In this document: in pieces, positions 19,171-62,450 of the stretch
Layout of the letters: every line of letters starts with the position of its first letter
How positions within the stretch are numbered: position 1 is the stretch's first letter
Source: Hamadaea flava
GTDB lineage: Bacteria; Actinomycetota; Actinomycetes; Mycobacteriales; Micromonosporaceae
NCBI RefSeq assembly: GCF_024172085.1
Contig: NZ_JAMZDZ010000001.1
Coordinates: 7,068,001 to 7,132,000, forward strand
Direction: 5' to 3'
Length of the DNA: 64,000 nucleotides
The notes under the pieces: model-generated
The model's input: only the letters and a program-made list of their open reading frames with translations
Told to the model about the DNA's origin: nothing
Databases searched by the model: none
Position numbers and translations under genes: made by a program

Positions 19171-19242
19171 GCCGGGGAGCCTCTTGCCGGGGAGGCTCTT
19201 GCCGGGGAGGCTCTCGGCCGAGCCGCCAGGAGTGCGGTCGGG
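19171..19242 (+). repeat. 42-bp interspersed element, intergenic copy with triplicated 15-bp end
   Basis: Three tandem units of GCCGGGGAGSCTCTY (19171-19185, 19186-19200, 19201-19215) lead into CGGCCGAGCC and CCAGGAGTGCGGTC. The last unit plus tail (19201-19242) matches the element found inside sufD, the GH13 gene and hemH. A diverged partial copy (GGCGAGCCGCCGGAG) continues to about 19257. It lies 13 bp after the ATPase stop. Confidence 0.8.
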
Positions 19243-21464: not shown

Positions 21465-22657
21465 TGACGACCCTGGAGACCAGCGCACCGCCGAAGACGA
21501 AGTCCCAAGCCCTGCGCTCCTACGACGTCGCGGACTTCCCGGCCCTCACGGGGCTGGAGGAGGAGTGGCGGTTCACCCCGCTGAAGAGGCTGCGCGACCT
21601 GGCCACCACCGGGTCGGGCGCAGTCGCGACGGGGGCGGCGCCGAAGTGGGAGATCCCGGCGCTGCCCACCGGGGTCACCGTGACCACCGTCGGCCGGGAG
21701 GACGCCCGGCTCGGCAGCGTGCTCACGCCGTTCGACCGGATCAGCGCGCTCGCGTACGGGGCCTTCGAGAGCGCCACGCTGATCAGCGTCGCGAACGAGG
21801 CCACCCCGGCCGAGCCCATCCAGGTACGCCTGGTGGGCGGCGGCGCGGAGGCGATCGCGTACGGGCACACCTTCATCGAGATCGGCGCGCTCGCCGAGGC
21901 GACGCTGATCCTGGAACACACGGGCAGCGCCACGCTGGCCGACAACGTGGAGATCTCGGTCGGCCCCGGCGCGCACCTGACCCTGGTCACCGTGACCGAC
22001 TGGGCGCGGGACGCCGTGCAGGCGCAGCACCTGAAGTTCCGGCTGGGCCGCGACGCCAAGGTCCTGCACGTGCAGGTCTCCCTCGGCGGCGACCTGGTCC
22101 GCCAGTACACCTCGGTCGAGTACGCCGACCGCGGCGGCGACATGAGCGCCTACGGGCTGTACTTCGCGACCGAGGGCCAGCACCTCGAACACCGCCTGCT
22201 CGTTGACCACGCCGTGCCGGACTGCCGTTCGTACGTGGGTTACCGGGGCGCGCTGCAGGGTGAGCAGGCGCACACGGTGTGGGTCGGCGATGTGCTGATC
22301 CGGGCCGAGGCGACCGGCACCGACACCTACGAGATCAACCGGAACCTGCTGCTGTCCGACGGCGCGCGGGCCGACTCGGTGCCGAACCTGGAGATCGAGA
22401 CCGGCGAGGTGGCCGGGGCGGGGCACGCCAGCGCCACCGGCCGGTTCGACGACGAGCACCTGTTCTACCTGATGGCCCGGGGCATCCCCGAGGACGAGGC
22501 GCGCAAGCTGGTCGTCCGCGGCTTCTTCGCCGAACTGCTCGCGAAGATCCCCGTACCGGAGCTGCACGACCGGCTCGGCGATGTGATCGAGGCGCGGCTG
22601 CATGCCGGGGAAGGCTTGCCTGAGCCGCCAGAAGTGCAGTCAGGGGCCTCGGCATGA
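21464..22657 (+). CDS. sufD: Fe-S cluster assembly protein SufD
   Basis: SufD is the SufB paralogue in the SufBC2D scaffold complex, needed for iron entry. The 397-residue product has a SufD-type beta-helix core with HRLLVDHAVPDCRSYVGYRG and the end LFYLMARGIPEDEARKLVVRGFF. Its last 17 residues, AGEGLPEPPEVQSGASA, come from the 42-bp interspersed element, which reaches to within 10 bp of the stop. Usual SufD proteins end before this. The stop overlaps the Rieske gene as ATGA. Confidence 0.95.
   Translation: MTTLETSAPPKTKSQALRSYDVADFPALTGLEEEWRFTPLKRLRDLATTGSGAVATGAAPKWEIPALPTGVTVTTVGREDARLGSVLTPFDRISALAYGAFESATLISVANEATPAEPIQVRLVGGGAEAIAYGHTFIEIGALAEATLILEHTGSATLADNVEISVGPGAHLTLVTVTDWARDAVQAQHLKFRLGRDAKVLHVQVSLGGDLVRQYTSVEYADRGGDMSAYGLYFATEGQHLEHRLLVDHAVPDCRSYVGYRGALQGEQAHTVWVGDVLIRAEATGTDTYEINRNLLLSDGARADSVPNLEIETGEVAGAGHASATGRFDDEHLFYLMARGIPEDEARKLVVRGFFAELLAKIPVPELHDRLGDVIEARLHAGEGLPEPPEVQSGASA
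22604..22645 (+). repeat. 42-bp interspersed element, copy within the 3' end of sufD
   Basis: GCCGGGGAAGGCTTGCC then TGAGCCGCCAGAAGTGCAGT matches the copy in the GH13 gene at 36 of 42 positions by hand count. It is read in frame as AGEGLPEPPEVQSG. Confidence 0.85.
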
Positions 22658-25932: not shown

Positions 25933-25981
25933 CCGCATCGCGCCGCCCGGCCGCCGGCGCGGCCCGCGCGGCTTCGCGTGT

Positions 25982-26031
25982 CGATCTAGGCGAGAAATGG
26001 TTGCCCTGGCCGCCATTTCTCGCCTAGATCG
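25982..26031. repeat. paired-hairpin element, type A (locus 1)
   Basis: Perfect 19-bp arms beginning CGATCTAGGCGAGAAATGG surround a 12-nt loop (26001-26012). It lies 50 bp after sufT. The arm sequence recurs at 62197-62245. Confidence 0.85.
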
Positions 26032-26053
26032 TTTTCGGCCCCGTGAGGCGTCC

Positions 26054-26105
26054 GTGATCTTGAATAGAAAACGCTGCCGGGACGCCGTTTTCTATTCAAG
26101 ATCAC
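26054..26105. repeat. paired-hairpin element, type B (locus 1)
   Basis: Perfect 20-bp arms (GTGATCTTGAATAG then AAAACG) surround a 12-nt loop. The type A and B arms share GATCTnG and AGAAA. Both hairpins lie between convergent sufT and the DUF402 gene, where they could also serve as terminators. Confidence 0.85.
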
Positions 26106-26169
26106 CAAGTGCGGCCCGAATCGCGGCACCGAGAGCGGCGATCTCCGCAGTATGCAGCGTCGAACGGGG

Positions 26170-29511: not shown

Positions 29512-31149
29512 GTGTCAGGTCAATGGTGGCGGCATGCCGCGATCTATCAGATCTATCCCCGTAGCTTCGCCGACGGCACCGCGGACGGGATCGGCGACGT
29601 CGCGGGCATCCGCGCTCGGCTCGGCTACCTGAAGGAGCTGGGGATCGACGCCCTGTGGCTGAGTCCCTGGTACACCTCGCCGATGGCCGACGCCGGCTAC
29701 GACGTGGCCGACTACCGGGACATCGACCCCCTGTTCGGCACGCTGGCCGACGCGGAGGCGTTCCTGGCCGAAGCGCACCAGCTGGGCATCCGCGTGATCG
29801 TGGACATCGTCCCGAACCACTGCTCGGACCAGCACCCCTGGTTCCAGGCCGCCTTGGCGGCCGGGCCGGGCTCGCCTGAGCGGGACCTGTTCTGGTTCCG
29901 GCCCGGCCGCGGTGAGCACGGGGAACTGCCGCCCAACGACTGGCAGTCGAACTTCGGCGGCCCGGCGTGGACCCAGGTTGCCGGGGAGGGCTCGCCCGAG
30001 ACGCCAGGAGTGCAGTCAGGCGGGGAGTGGTACCTGCACCTGTTCGCCCCGGAACAACCGGACTGGAACTGGGATCATCCCGACGTCCGCGAGGACTTCA
30101 CGCGTACGCTGCGGTTCTGGCTCGACCGGGGCGTCGACGGCTTCCGCATCGACGTCGCCGAGGCGCTGGTGAAGGATCCGGCGCTGCCCGACTTCGCGGA
30201 CATGCCGCTCGGCGTACCGGCGCCCTGGGTCGACCAGGACGGCGTGCACGAGATCTACCGCGAATGGCGCAAGATCGCCGACTCCTACCCGCAGGAGGCG
30301 ATCTTCGTCGGCGAACTGTGGATCACCGACCCCGAGCGCTTCGCCCGCTACCTGCGGCCGGACGAGCTGCACACCGGGTTCAACTTCCCGTTCCTGTCAG
30401 CCGCCTGGGACGCGGGCGACCTGCGTACCGTCATCGACCAGACCTTGGCCACCCACGAGCCGATCGGCGCCCCCGCGACCTGGGTGTTGTCGAACCATGA
30501 CGTCACCCGCGTGGTGACGCGGTACGGCCGGGCGGACACCCGCCACACCTGGGACCTGACGCGGGAGGCGCATCCGGCCGACCTGGAGCTGGGGACCCGC
30601 CGGGCGCGGGCGGCCGCGTTGCTGTCGCTCAGCCTGCCCGGGACGGTCTACGTGTACCAGGGCGAGGAACTGGGCCTGCCGGAGGTGCAGGATCTGCCCG
30701 AGGAGGTGCTGGCCGATCCGCGCTGGGTGCGGTCCGGGCACACCGACCGCGGCCGGGACGGCTGCCGGGTGCCGCTGCCGTGGAGTGGCGACGCGGCGCC
30801 GTTCGGATTCAGCCCCACCGGCGTACGCACGTGGCTGCCGCAGCCGCCGGAGTGGAAGGCCTTGACGGCGGAGGCGGAGAGCGGCGACCCGGGTTCGATG
30901 CTGTCGCTGTACCGCACGGCGCTGCGGCTGCGTCACGAGATGGCTGAGCTGCTCGACGAAGGTCTGCGCTGGTTGCCGGCCGAGCCCGGCGTTCTCGCGT
31001 ACGCCCGCGGCGAGACGTTCGTCTGCGTGGTCAACACCGGCGCCGAGCCGGCGGAGTTGCCCGCGTACGCCGAGATTCTGCTGGCCAGCGGCGATCTCGT
31101 GGCCGGAAAACTGCCCGCCGACACGGCGGTCTGGCTGCGCATCGCCTGA
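29512..31149 (+). CDS. GH13 alpha-glucosidase (oligo-1,6-glucosidase type)
   Basis: The 545-residue cytosolic enzyme of glycoside hydrolase family 13 cleaves alpha-glucosidic bonds in small malto- or isomalto-oligosaccharides. The four GH13 regions are clear: DIVPNHCS, GFRIDVAEAL (nucleophile Asp), VGELW (acid/base Glu) and LSNHDVTR. Residues 157-170 (AGEGSPETPGVQSG) come from the 42-bp interspersed element, inserted in the loop between FGGPAWTQV and EWYLHLF, which relatives join by a short linker. GTG is the start and no Shine-Dalgarno is present. It is monocistronic. Confidence 0.93.
   Translation: MSGQWWRHAAIYQIYPRSFADGTADGIGDVAGIRARLGYLKELGIDALWLSPWYTSPMADAGYDVADYRDIDPLFGTLADAEAFLAEAHQLGIRVIVDIVPNHCSDQHPWFQAALAAGPGSPERDLFWFRPGRGEHGELPPNDWQSNFGGPAWTQVAGEGSPETPGVQSGGEWYLHLFAPEQPDWNWDHPDVREDFTRTLRFWLDRGVDGFRIDVAEALVKDPALPDFADMPLGVPAPWVDQDGVHEIYREWRKIADSYPQEAIFVGELWITDPERFARYLRPDELHTGFNFPFLSAAWDAGDLRTVIDQTLATHEPIGAPATWVLSNHDVTRVVTRYGRADTRHTWDLTREAHPADLELGTRRARAAALLSLSLPGTVYVYQGEELGLPEVQDLPEEVLADPRWVRSGHTDRGRDGCRVPLPWSGDAAPFGFSPTGVRTWLPQPPEWKALTAEAESGDPGSMLSLYRTALRLRHEMAELLDEGLRWLPAEPGVLAYARGETFVCVVNTGAEPAELPAYAEILLASGDLVAGKLPADTAVWLRIA
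29980..30021 (+). repeat. 42-bp interspersed element, copy inside the GH13 gene
   Basis: GCCGGGGAGGGCTCGCCCGA then GACGCCAGGAGTGCAGTCAG. The frame is kept and starts on a codon boundary, as in hemH and sufD. It matches the hemH copy at 37 of 42 positions. Confidence 0.87.
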
Positions 31150-41093: not shown

Positions 41094-42164
41094 GTGCCAG
41101 TAGACGCCTTTTTGCTGCTGTCGTTCGGCGGTCCCGAGGGCCCCGACGACGTGATGCCGTTCTTGCGCAACGTGACCGCCGGGCGCGGTGTCCCGGAGGA
41201 GCGGCTGCTCGAAGTCGCCGAGCACTACCAGCACTTCGGCGGCGTCTCGCCGATCAACGAGCAGAACCGGGCGCTCCTGCGGGCGATCGAGGCCGACTTC
41301 CGGGATCAGGGTGTCGGCCTGCCCCTCTACTGGGGCAACCGCAACTGGCAGCCGATGCTCGCCGACACCCTGGCGCAGATGCGCGATGACGGCGTCGAGT
41401 TCGCGGTCGGGCTCGCGACGAGCGCGTACGCCGGATATTCGTCGTGCCGGCAGTATCTGGAGGACATCGCGGCGGCCCGGGCCAAGGTCGGTCCGGGCGC
41501 GCCCGAGGTCGTCAAGCTGCCCCACTTCTACGACCGTCCCGGGTTCGTCGAGCCACACGTGGACGCCGTCCGGGCGGCGCTGGCGAAGGTCGGGCCCGGC
41601 CCGGCTCGGATCGTCTTCACCGCGCACTCGATCCCGCTGTCCATGGCGCGTACGGCGGGCCCGGGAGCCGGGGAGGGCTCGGCCGAGCCGTCAGGAGTGC
41701 AGTCGGTCGGTCTGTACGAGGCTCAGCTGAGGGAGGTCGCCCGGCTGGTCGCCGAGCGCGCCGCGCCCGGCCTCGCCTGGGACCTCGTCTGGCAGTCCCG
41801 GTCCGGCCCGCCGCAGGTGCCGTGGCTGGAGCCGGACGTCAACGACCACCTCCGGACGGTGGCGGAGAAGGCGGTGGTAGTGAGCCCGATCGGGTTCGTC
41901 TCCGACCATCTCGAAGTCATCTGGGACCTGGACAACGAGGCGGCCGCGACGGCGGCCGAGCTGAGTCTGGCGTACGCCCGCGCGGCGACCCCGGGCACCG
42001 ATCCTCGCTTCGTGCGGATGATCACCGATCTCGTACGCGAGGCGATGGCCGCACCGCAGGCAACAGCGCCGTCCGATACACGGCCGACACCCGGGCTCGG
42101 TAGGCTTTCGGCGATACAGACGTGCGGGGCCGGGTGTTGTCCGGCGCCCGCGAGGCGCGGATAG
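41094..42164 (+). CDS. hemH: ferrochelatase (coproporphyrin type)
   Basis: It inserts iron into (copro)porphyrin III in actinobacterial heme synthesis. The 356-residue product shows LLSFGGPEGPDDVMPFL, FGGVSPINEQNRAL, FTAHSIP (catalytic His) and DLVWQSRSGPPQVPWLEPDV. The internal YSSCRQY and C-terminal TCGAGCCPAP supply cysteines that fit the [2Fe-2S] cluster known for actinobacterial ferrochelatases. Residues 192-206 (AGEGSAEPSGVQSVG) are a copy of the 42-bp element, between HSIPLSMARTAG and LYEAQLREV, lengthening a loop. Confidence 0.95.
   Translation: MPVDAFLLLSFGGPEGPDDVMPFLRNVTAGRGVPEERLLEVAEHYQHFGGVSPINEQNRALLRAIEADFRDQGVGLPLYWGNRNWQPMLADTLAQMRDDGVEFAVGLATSAYAGYSSCRQYLEDIAAARAKVGPGAPEVVKLPHFYDRPGFVEPHVDAVRAALAKVGPGPARIVFTAHSIPLSMARTAGPGAGEGSAEPSGVQSVGLYEAQLREVARLVAERAAPGLAWDLVWQSRSGPPQVPWLEPDVNDHLRTVAEKAVVVSPIGFVSDHLEVIWDLDNEAAATAAELSLAYARAATPGTDPRFVRMITDLVREAMAAPQATAPSDTRPTPGLGRLSAIQTCGAGCCPAPARRG
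41667..41708 (+). repeat. 42-bp interspersed element, copy inside hemH
   Basis: GCCGGGGAGGGCTCGGCCGA then GCCGTCAGGAGTGCAGTCGG. The core GGCTCGGCCGAGCC is a perfect 14-bp palindrome. It starts on a codon boundary and keeps the frame. Confidence 0.87.
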
Positions 42165-62039: not shown

Positions 62040-62133
62040 GGCGGCTCCACAAGCCGCGCTCACGCTCGGCTCACGCTCGGCGCATCCTCCGCGTTCACGC
62101 TCGGCTCACGCTCGGCGGTCAGCCCGCCGCGCG

Positions 62134-62185
62134 GTGATCTTGAACGAAAACTGCTGCTATGGCGACGTTTTCTGTTCAAGATCAC
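62134..62185. repeat. paired-hairpin element, type B (locus 2)
   Basis: The arms GTGATCTTGAACGAAAAC and GTTTTCTGTTCAAGATCAC pair except for one bulged base. They match the type B arms at 26054-26105 apart from AAT to AAC-type changes. Confidence 0.83.
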
Positions 62186-62196
62186 GCCGCACTTGT

Positions 62197-62245
62197 CGAT
62201 CTAGGCGATGAATGGCGGCTATGGCGACCTTTTCTCGCCTAGATC
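62197..62245. repeat. paired-hairpin element, type A (locus 2)
   Basis: GATCTAGGCGATGAATGG (62198-62215) pairs with CCTTTTCTCGCCTAGATC (62228-62245) with three mismatches. The outer arm GATCTAGGCGA is identical to locus 1. Its loop shares GCTATGGCGAC with the neighbouring type B loop. Confidence 0.83.
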
Positions 62246-62261
62246 ATCCCGCCGCAACGCA

Positions 62262-62450
62262 ACGCGACGCGACGCTGCGCACGACGATGCCGGCCGCGCA
62301 CGACGATGCCCGCCGCGACGCGACGCTGCGCACGACGATGCCCGCCGCGACGCGACGCTACGCACGGCGAGGCCGGCCGCGCACGACGATGCCCGCCGCG
62401 ACGCGACAACGATGCCCGCCGCAGACGACGATGCCCGCCGCGACAGCGAC
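62262..62450. repeat. tandem array around CGACGATGCCCGCCGCG
   Basis: ACGATGCC recurs six times, plus one variant (GCGAGGCC), with irregular spacing of about 18-50 bp, embedded in GACGCGACGCT repeats. It is a degenerate variable-number-type repeat without unique spacers. Confidence 0.75.

Follow-up and report, generated by a model that had tools for sequence, protein, structure and literature searches.

A 39-nt dispersed repeat inserted in frame in hemH and other genes of Hamadaea

The ferrochelatase gene hemH of Hamadaea flava contains a short stretch of DNA that is found again elsewhere in the analyzed window, i.e., the 64,000 nucleotides G000:C1:7068001-7132000 of the 8.86 Mb genome, which forms a single contig (G000 in the following; G001, G002 and G003 are three Hamadaea congeners). 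What is this stretch, and how does an essential gene come to carry it? A first-pass annotation, made from the sequence alone, described a 42-bp interspersed element with four matching sites in the window, which starts on a codon boundary of hemH, is free of stops in that frame and adds about 15 residues to the enzyme. All four sites are real and can be aligned (Table 1), and both the codon-boundary start and the open frame were confirmed. The repeat unit is, however, 39 nt long and not 42 nt, because tandem arrays in G001 have a period of 39 nt and HemH has 13 extra residues compared to G002 and G003 rather than about 15.

Table 1. Copies of the repeat and the gene hemH in the window (R1, covariance model of the repeat)
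Feature	Position	Strand	Evidence and remarks
Element copy in hemH	41667..41705	+	Read AGEGSAEPSGVQS; R1 58.6 bits; 13 residues without counterpart in HemH of G002 and G003
hemH (ferrochelatase, PF00762), carries the insertion	41094..42164	+	Pfam E 1.2e-81; ORF; AlphaFold2 model
Element copy in alpha-amylase family gene	29980..30018	+	Read AGEGSPETPGVQS; R1 64.0 bits; PF00128 over window:29488-30618
Element copy at 3' end of SufBD-type gene	22604..22642	+	R1 62.6 bits; SUFBD_core PF01458; translation
Element copy, class with an extra loop T	19201..19240	+	R1 61.6 bits; non-coding according to the codon model
Two tandem 15-nt 5'-half elements	19171..19200	+	Each ends in the hairpin loop; sequence read directly; full copy adjoins 3'

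The repeat family and its hairpin

The insert in hemH is one copy of a dispersed repeat that reaches well beyond the window. R1, built from 44 copies, matched 81 times in G000, 59 times in G002, 51 times in G003 and 34 times in G001 (E ≤ 0.01; at most 150 candidates scored per genome). The 17-mer CCGCCAGGAGTGCAGTC of the conserved tail occurs 78 times in G000 with up to two mismatches vs. 5 times for its reversed control, which excludes chance as the source of the repeat; G003, G002 and G001 have 54, 52 and 29 such matches (reversed controls 2, 1 and 3). In the other 196 of 200 genomes scanned from the family, 0–8 matches per genome were counted, all within the range of the controls. An exact 20-mer scan across 84,980 species returned 19 stretches, every one in Hamadaea records; one of them (L013) has two copies, at coordinates identical to those in G002 contig C110. 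At 1e-5 and with stricter filters, R1 found nothing outside G000 in 200 genomes of the order. A phage or plasmid origin was set aside, as IMG/VR viral contigs contained no exact match and the plasmid search gave only five Sinorhizobium records at an E-value of 0.5, covering 66% of the query. The first interpretation, an interspersed element that an actinomycete carries within an essential gene without loss of frame, is supported: the genome contains about 80 copies, and HemH from outside the genus does not share the insert (see below). No repeat of such kind was described for Hamadaea or Micromonosporaceae among the matches listed in titles and abstract openings of open-licence PubMed Central articles.

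Copies were listed from 78 model matches in G000, excluding the five weakest (20.6–26.5 bits), and from a second set of 48, excluding 12 repeats of duplicated loci, giving 109 copies, 108 of them distinct (L081 repeats L010). In the unit, GCCGGGGA precedes a hairpin of two complementary stem strands around a CTYG loop, and GAGCCGCCAGGAGTGCAGTCAG comes after it; the part behind the second stem strand reads GAGCCGCCAGGAGTGCAGTC with an AG that is nearly constant. The core from GCC to GTC mostly measures 38, 39 or 40 nt, and these classes differ in the stem-loop. The alignment of the 38-nt class comprised 51 copies, which form 42 distinct rows; 95.2% of the cells of a four-pair stem are paired, and 24 double changes were counted in the stem compared to 7.4 in shuffles, none of 500 shuffles reaching as high. 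The signal vanishes when the stem partner is slid. Based on this covariation, we conclude that the pairing is kept more than the letters. Across the family, the structure is a covarying stem of 3–4 bp with the CTYG loop, in a register other than that of the perfect palindrome noted at first. The latter (GGCTCGGCCGAGCC, 14 nt) does exist, but is private to hemH, being present in one of the 109 listed copies. Folding of the hairpin was no better than that of shuffled sequence. An extended outer stem was rejected as a covarying structure: it is conserved (92.5% paired), yet without a single double change. A larger parent element was likewise rejected, as the flanks of 96 non-palindromic copies have C/A before the unit and AG-Y after it, but no clear conservation otherwise. 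Half elements are found at window positions 19171–19200, and 3' parts alone are present in G002 at the L044 and L036 sites, which suggests breaks at the hairpin.

Occupied and empty sites

In HemH of G000, the link between the conserved GP and LYE reads GP-GAGEGSAEPSGVQSVG-LYE. The corresponding links are GP-QG-GLYE in G002 (96% identical to G000) and GP-EG-NLYE in G003 (93%), so that G000 has 13 more residues between GP and LYE than either. The expectation that close relatives lack the insert was thus borne out for these two species but not for G001, the most distant congener (80% identical), in which GP-PADERSRESPGVRSGN-LYE represents a diverged copy in the identical place. Outside the genus, 36 HemH matches were obtained, and the 26 that were compared all lack the insert sequence; R1 found no copy in hemH of these loci, its single match (E 0.64) lying outside the gene. 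Longer links of other sequence occur at the site in three non-genus loci (L059, L066, L067). On the genus tree given below, presence in G000 and G001 and absence from G002 and G003 would require two gains (two events), or one gain followed by two losses (three events); the hemH stems of G000 and G001 differ, which favors two gains. An AlphaFold2 model of HemH based on 28 sequences (pTM 0.87) predicts the insert as an unstructured loop between two helices, with pLDDT below 50 for residues 193–204. In the two alignments to solved ferrochelatases that were inspected, the insert stretch falls in or beside a gap. No promoter or terminator consensus was found in the surroundings of hemH.

To assess mobility, sequence flanking 24 copies of G000, without the element itself, was searched across the genus, and alignment of the regions yielded 60 site-species pairs. 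In 40 of these, G000 has a gain of at least 30 nt. G003 contributes 22 of 24 sites (1 without a clear call, 1 between), G002 12 of 20 (5 filled, 1 without a clear call, 2 between) and G001 6 of 16 (10 without a clear call); the uncalled site in G002 (L115) holds a full copy by eye. Not all gain pairs are clean: L032 has a change of other size, and L148 and G002 L044 appear partly occupied. Remnant-like sequences were seen for L024 in G003 and L036 in G002. In the reverse test, 18 copies from relatives were searched, of which 17 aligned over the site (L109 matched with one flank only). The element was absent from G000 at 16 of the 17 sites, the remaining one (L008) being a diverged copy of G000's own. 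Twelve of the 16 differ by 36–40 nt, three by 24–30 nt (L083, L089, L095), and L085 was poorly aligned. Thus, site occupancy differs between species in both directions, with 39 nt as the commonest difference. On the genus tree ((G000,G002),G003),G001, favored by 104 site patterns vs. 56 and 54, the simplest reading of these sequences is gains in more than one lineage.

Copies inside genes and their reading frame

A copy was called genic when an open frame was supported on both sides by a codon model trained on the window; the gene calls rest on this model and Pfam. By this criterion, 34 of the 109 listed copies are genic (23 of 73 in G000). The carrier scan covered part of the genic carriers, and 28 of 29 scanned proteins had a Pfam match at E 0.001, two of them below the curated cut-off; SufBD, CobS and the amino-acid kinase were added by eye. 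The carrier families comprise ferrochelatase, EPSP synthase, galactose-1-phosphate uridyltransferase, CobS, SufBD, alpha-amylase, pirin, a class II tRNA synthetase with anticodon domain (ThrRS by eye), a Mur ligase (MurF by eye), an amino-acid kinase missed by the codon model (L120, ArgB by eye) and others. In G001, a queuosine synthesis protein (L231, 4882–6021) contains three tandem 13-residue units (AGERLREPPEVQ). The copy in the SufBD-type gene forms an in-frame C-terminal tail, HAGEGLPEPPEVQSGASA, followed by the stop, which overlaps the next ATG.

At 11 sites called genic, the length difference from an empty orthologue is a multiple of three in all 21 resolved pairs (39 in 15, 36 in 5 and 33 in 1). 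Since the same applies to 16 of 19 resolved pairs not called genic (39 in 7; the exceptions are 34, 35 and 41), a contrast between coding and non-coding lengths is not demonstrated. Several sites not called genic are probably missed genes.

The reading frame is biased. Among 26 sense copies, 21 read the tail as EPPGVQS or closely similar (p = 9e-7 against one third); three other settings gave 21/26, 20/24 and 22/28. The counts comprise hemH from two species and two tandem units from a single gene, but not the copies in SufBD and CobS. Eight of nine antisense copies have a TPGGS- or TSGGS-like reading. Stops do not explain the sense bias: of 108 copies, 105, 105 and 92 are stop-free in the three sense frames, respectively. 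For the three antisense frames, the numbers of open copies are 108, 102 and 18. The peptides of the favored frames are short, hydrophilic and rich in Pro and Gly, with Glu and Ser. Judged from sequence, copies in genes appear to be translated as a 13-residue loop, e.g., in hemH. A tail variant with C changed to A, GAGACGCC (ETP in place of EPP), was seen in the gene copies L146, L129, L047, L115 and at window position 29980.

Possible mechanism and known elements

We consider it probable (about 0.8) that the repeat is a genus-restricted, non-autonomous mobile micro-element which is moved in trans and filtered by selection at the protein level. This reading builds on what is demonstrated, i.e., dispersal, occupied and empty sites, conserved pairing and in-frame position. 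An enzyme supplied in trans would move or copy the element and would probably recognize its hairpin in DNA or RNA that is single-stranded. Within host genes, the element could then survive as a surface loop owing to its length and its mostly stop-free frames, while selection would discard insertions that shift the frame or give the protein a worse peptide. A host benefit would not be required, the element being tolerated selfish DNA. Some results speak against this explanation. In two copy-rich regions of G000 (6.742–6.760 and 6.926–6.940 Mb) and three of G001, visual inspection of the N-terminal 60 residues encoded by every predicted gene revealed no recognizable mobilizing gene (Pfam check for CobS alone). 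Target-site duplication was rejected, since the filled/empty pairs revealed no consistent case by eye; an excision product was not seen either. The HemH distribution needs two gains or a gain with two losses, the hairpin has no folding advantage over shuffled sequence, the outer stem is conserved without covariation, and L024, L036, L044 and L148 resemble internal deletions more than clean empty sites. As a separate observation, locus L227 (5111–6406) encodes a protein starting ...NPYRGCSHACVYCLGGDTQILMADGHTRPLAEL, which by eye resembles an intein within a radical-SAM protein.

Alternatively, the repeat might have spread passively with bigger mobile palindromic repeats, single copies being remnants or products of gene conversion. 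Twelve copies indeed sit at the tip of one long palindrome family, GTCGAATCT - short loop - AGATTCGAC, some members of which hold the 39-nt element at the tip, and the palindrome is abundant in its element-free form (exact copies: G000, 38; G003, 65; G002, 95). Further, L026, L027 and L085 lie within another palindrome by eye, and L004, L013 and L021 have a common flank. Nevertheless, we regard passive spread as unlikely: palindromes are a minority (10 of 109 listed copies score at least 12, vs. 5 of 5000 random positions), the gain at genic sites is about 39 nt alone, without palindrome arms, and G001 has no exact palindrome match but 34 element matches. The 12 tip copies all have a core of the 39-nt class and could stem from a single composite; for this reason, they were not taken as evidence of targeting, and hairpin-tip targeting as a rule was set aside. 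The frame preference itself, strong in both orientations, could be mechanistic, i.e., insertion could be targeted to a codon phase instead of being filtered by selection; a 39-nt gain is commonest for cores of 38, 39 and 40 nt, sites not called genic included. We hold this to be rather improbable, as 5 of the 26 sense copies depart from the preferred frame, flank preference hardly exceeds the C/A before and Y after the unit, and the coding lengths are explicable by selection with no need for targeting.

As to the moving enzyme, a small, dispersed, hairpin-bearing element with GGGGA before the stem in the inspected copies and no target duplication seen would fit a REP-like element moved by a Y1 transposase (RAYT/IS200-type). 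This is very unlikely, however, since Y1_Tnp (PF01797, E 0.01) matched in none of the four genus genomes (one of them 87% complete) but in 6 of 14 control genomes, the GTAG/CGTC tag is absent and the stem has just 3–4 bp. A reverse transcriptase (PF00078, E 0.001) was found in none of the four genus genomes and in 3 of the 14 controls. These two Pfam families cover only some of the enzymes that could act as the mover. Finally, the insert might be spliced out or bypassed in the product; mitochondrial byp elements are removed from theirs. Insertions in conserved enzymes, with a hairpin, agree with this, but we give it hardly any credence: length and frame are kept (21/21 genic pairs) and the frame is biased, neither of which removal would require, no Rfam family matched in the window at gathering scores, and the genus has no reverse transcriptase match. 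The byp elements are mentioned in the available text of PMC6649704.

Returning to a mobile micro-element, Rickettsia palindromic elements (RPE) are a close functional counterpart. According to the available text of PMC10969869 and PMC6649704, RPE are dispersed, structured and inserted in frame in unrelated metabolic genes with a conserved peptide. The Hamadaea repeat is likewise dispersed, hairpin-bearing and in frame in metabolic genes with a conserved peptide. In contrast, RPE are about 150 bp long (100–150 bp with an extended palindrome) and known from Rickettsia, whereas the repeat has a 39-nt unit with a covarying stem of 3–4 bp, occurs in actinomycete genomes of 7–9.5 Mb, and most of its listed copies are not called genic. 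The exact 20-mer scan placed the repeat in Hamadaea and not in Rickettsia, although diverged relatives would escape such a scan. The likeness to RPE proposed at first is therefore a good functional analogy but does not amount to membership, as size, structure and taxon differ.

Cyanobacterial small dispersed repeats (SDR; Elhai et al., 2008) are some 20 bp long, tandemly repeated and possibly mobile in the available text of PMC2884548, and the Hamadaea repeat is similarly very short and dispersed, with presence/absence differences; compared by description alone, frame-biased insertion in essential protein genes is a difference, being unmentioned for SDR in that text. For REP/REPIN and CGTC repeats, the available parts of PMC3733652 and PMC3116915 describe dispersed hairpins of 20–40 nt, CGTC repeats having intragenic units and no associated transposase. 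Their stems of 5–13 or 8–9 bp differ from the 3–4 bp found here, and both the tag at the hairpin end and a Y1 transposase in the genome are missing in Hamadaea. Mycobacterial interspersed repetitive units are small dispersed actinobacterial repeats that can extend over the end of a gene without breaking its frame, which is also seen for the SufBD copy, but they are longer and mainly intergenic. Terminal inverted repeats and target-site duplications, as in MITEs, were not seen consistently by eye at filled/empty pairs, nor does any of the four genomes match the reverse transcriptase of retro-elements. In sum, the repeat works like RPE and resembles SDR, and it lacks tested defining features of RPE, REP/RAYT, MITEs and retro-elements. 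Tentatively, it may represent a new kind of mobile DNA below 40 nt, although we would sooner doubt than assert this: 13 codons with a length and codon content suited to proteins, a typical gain of 39 nt, one tolerated frame preferred from either strand, tandem stacking within an enzyme (the three units of the G001 queuosine synthesis protein), and a mover other than a Y1 transposase or a reverse transcriptase.

The best-known case of mobile elements tolerated in genes is Rickettsia, whose small intracellular genomes, being under relaxed selection, offer an easy excuse. Here, a much smaller element does likewise in genomes of 7–9.5 Mb, in enzymes that serve haem, the cell wall, aromatic amino acids and tRNA. 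As filled and empty alleles exist among close species, it is directly testable what a 13-residue loop costs, how frames are filtered and which enzyme moves the element, and such alleles point to a route for proteins to gain loops.

Further repeats were observed in the window. Two AT-richer palindromic repeats have two copies each, in inverted orientation, one at 25976–26031 and 62197–62252, the other at 26053–26106 and 62133–62186. Overlapping direct repeats, ACGACGATGCCCGCCGCGAC and its neighbors, occupy 62263–62444.
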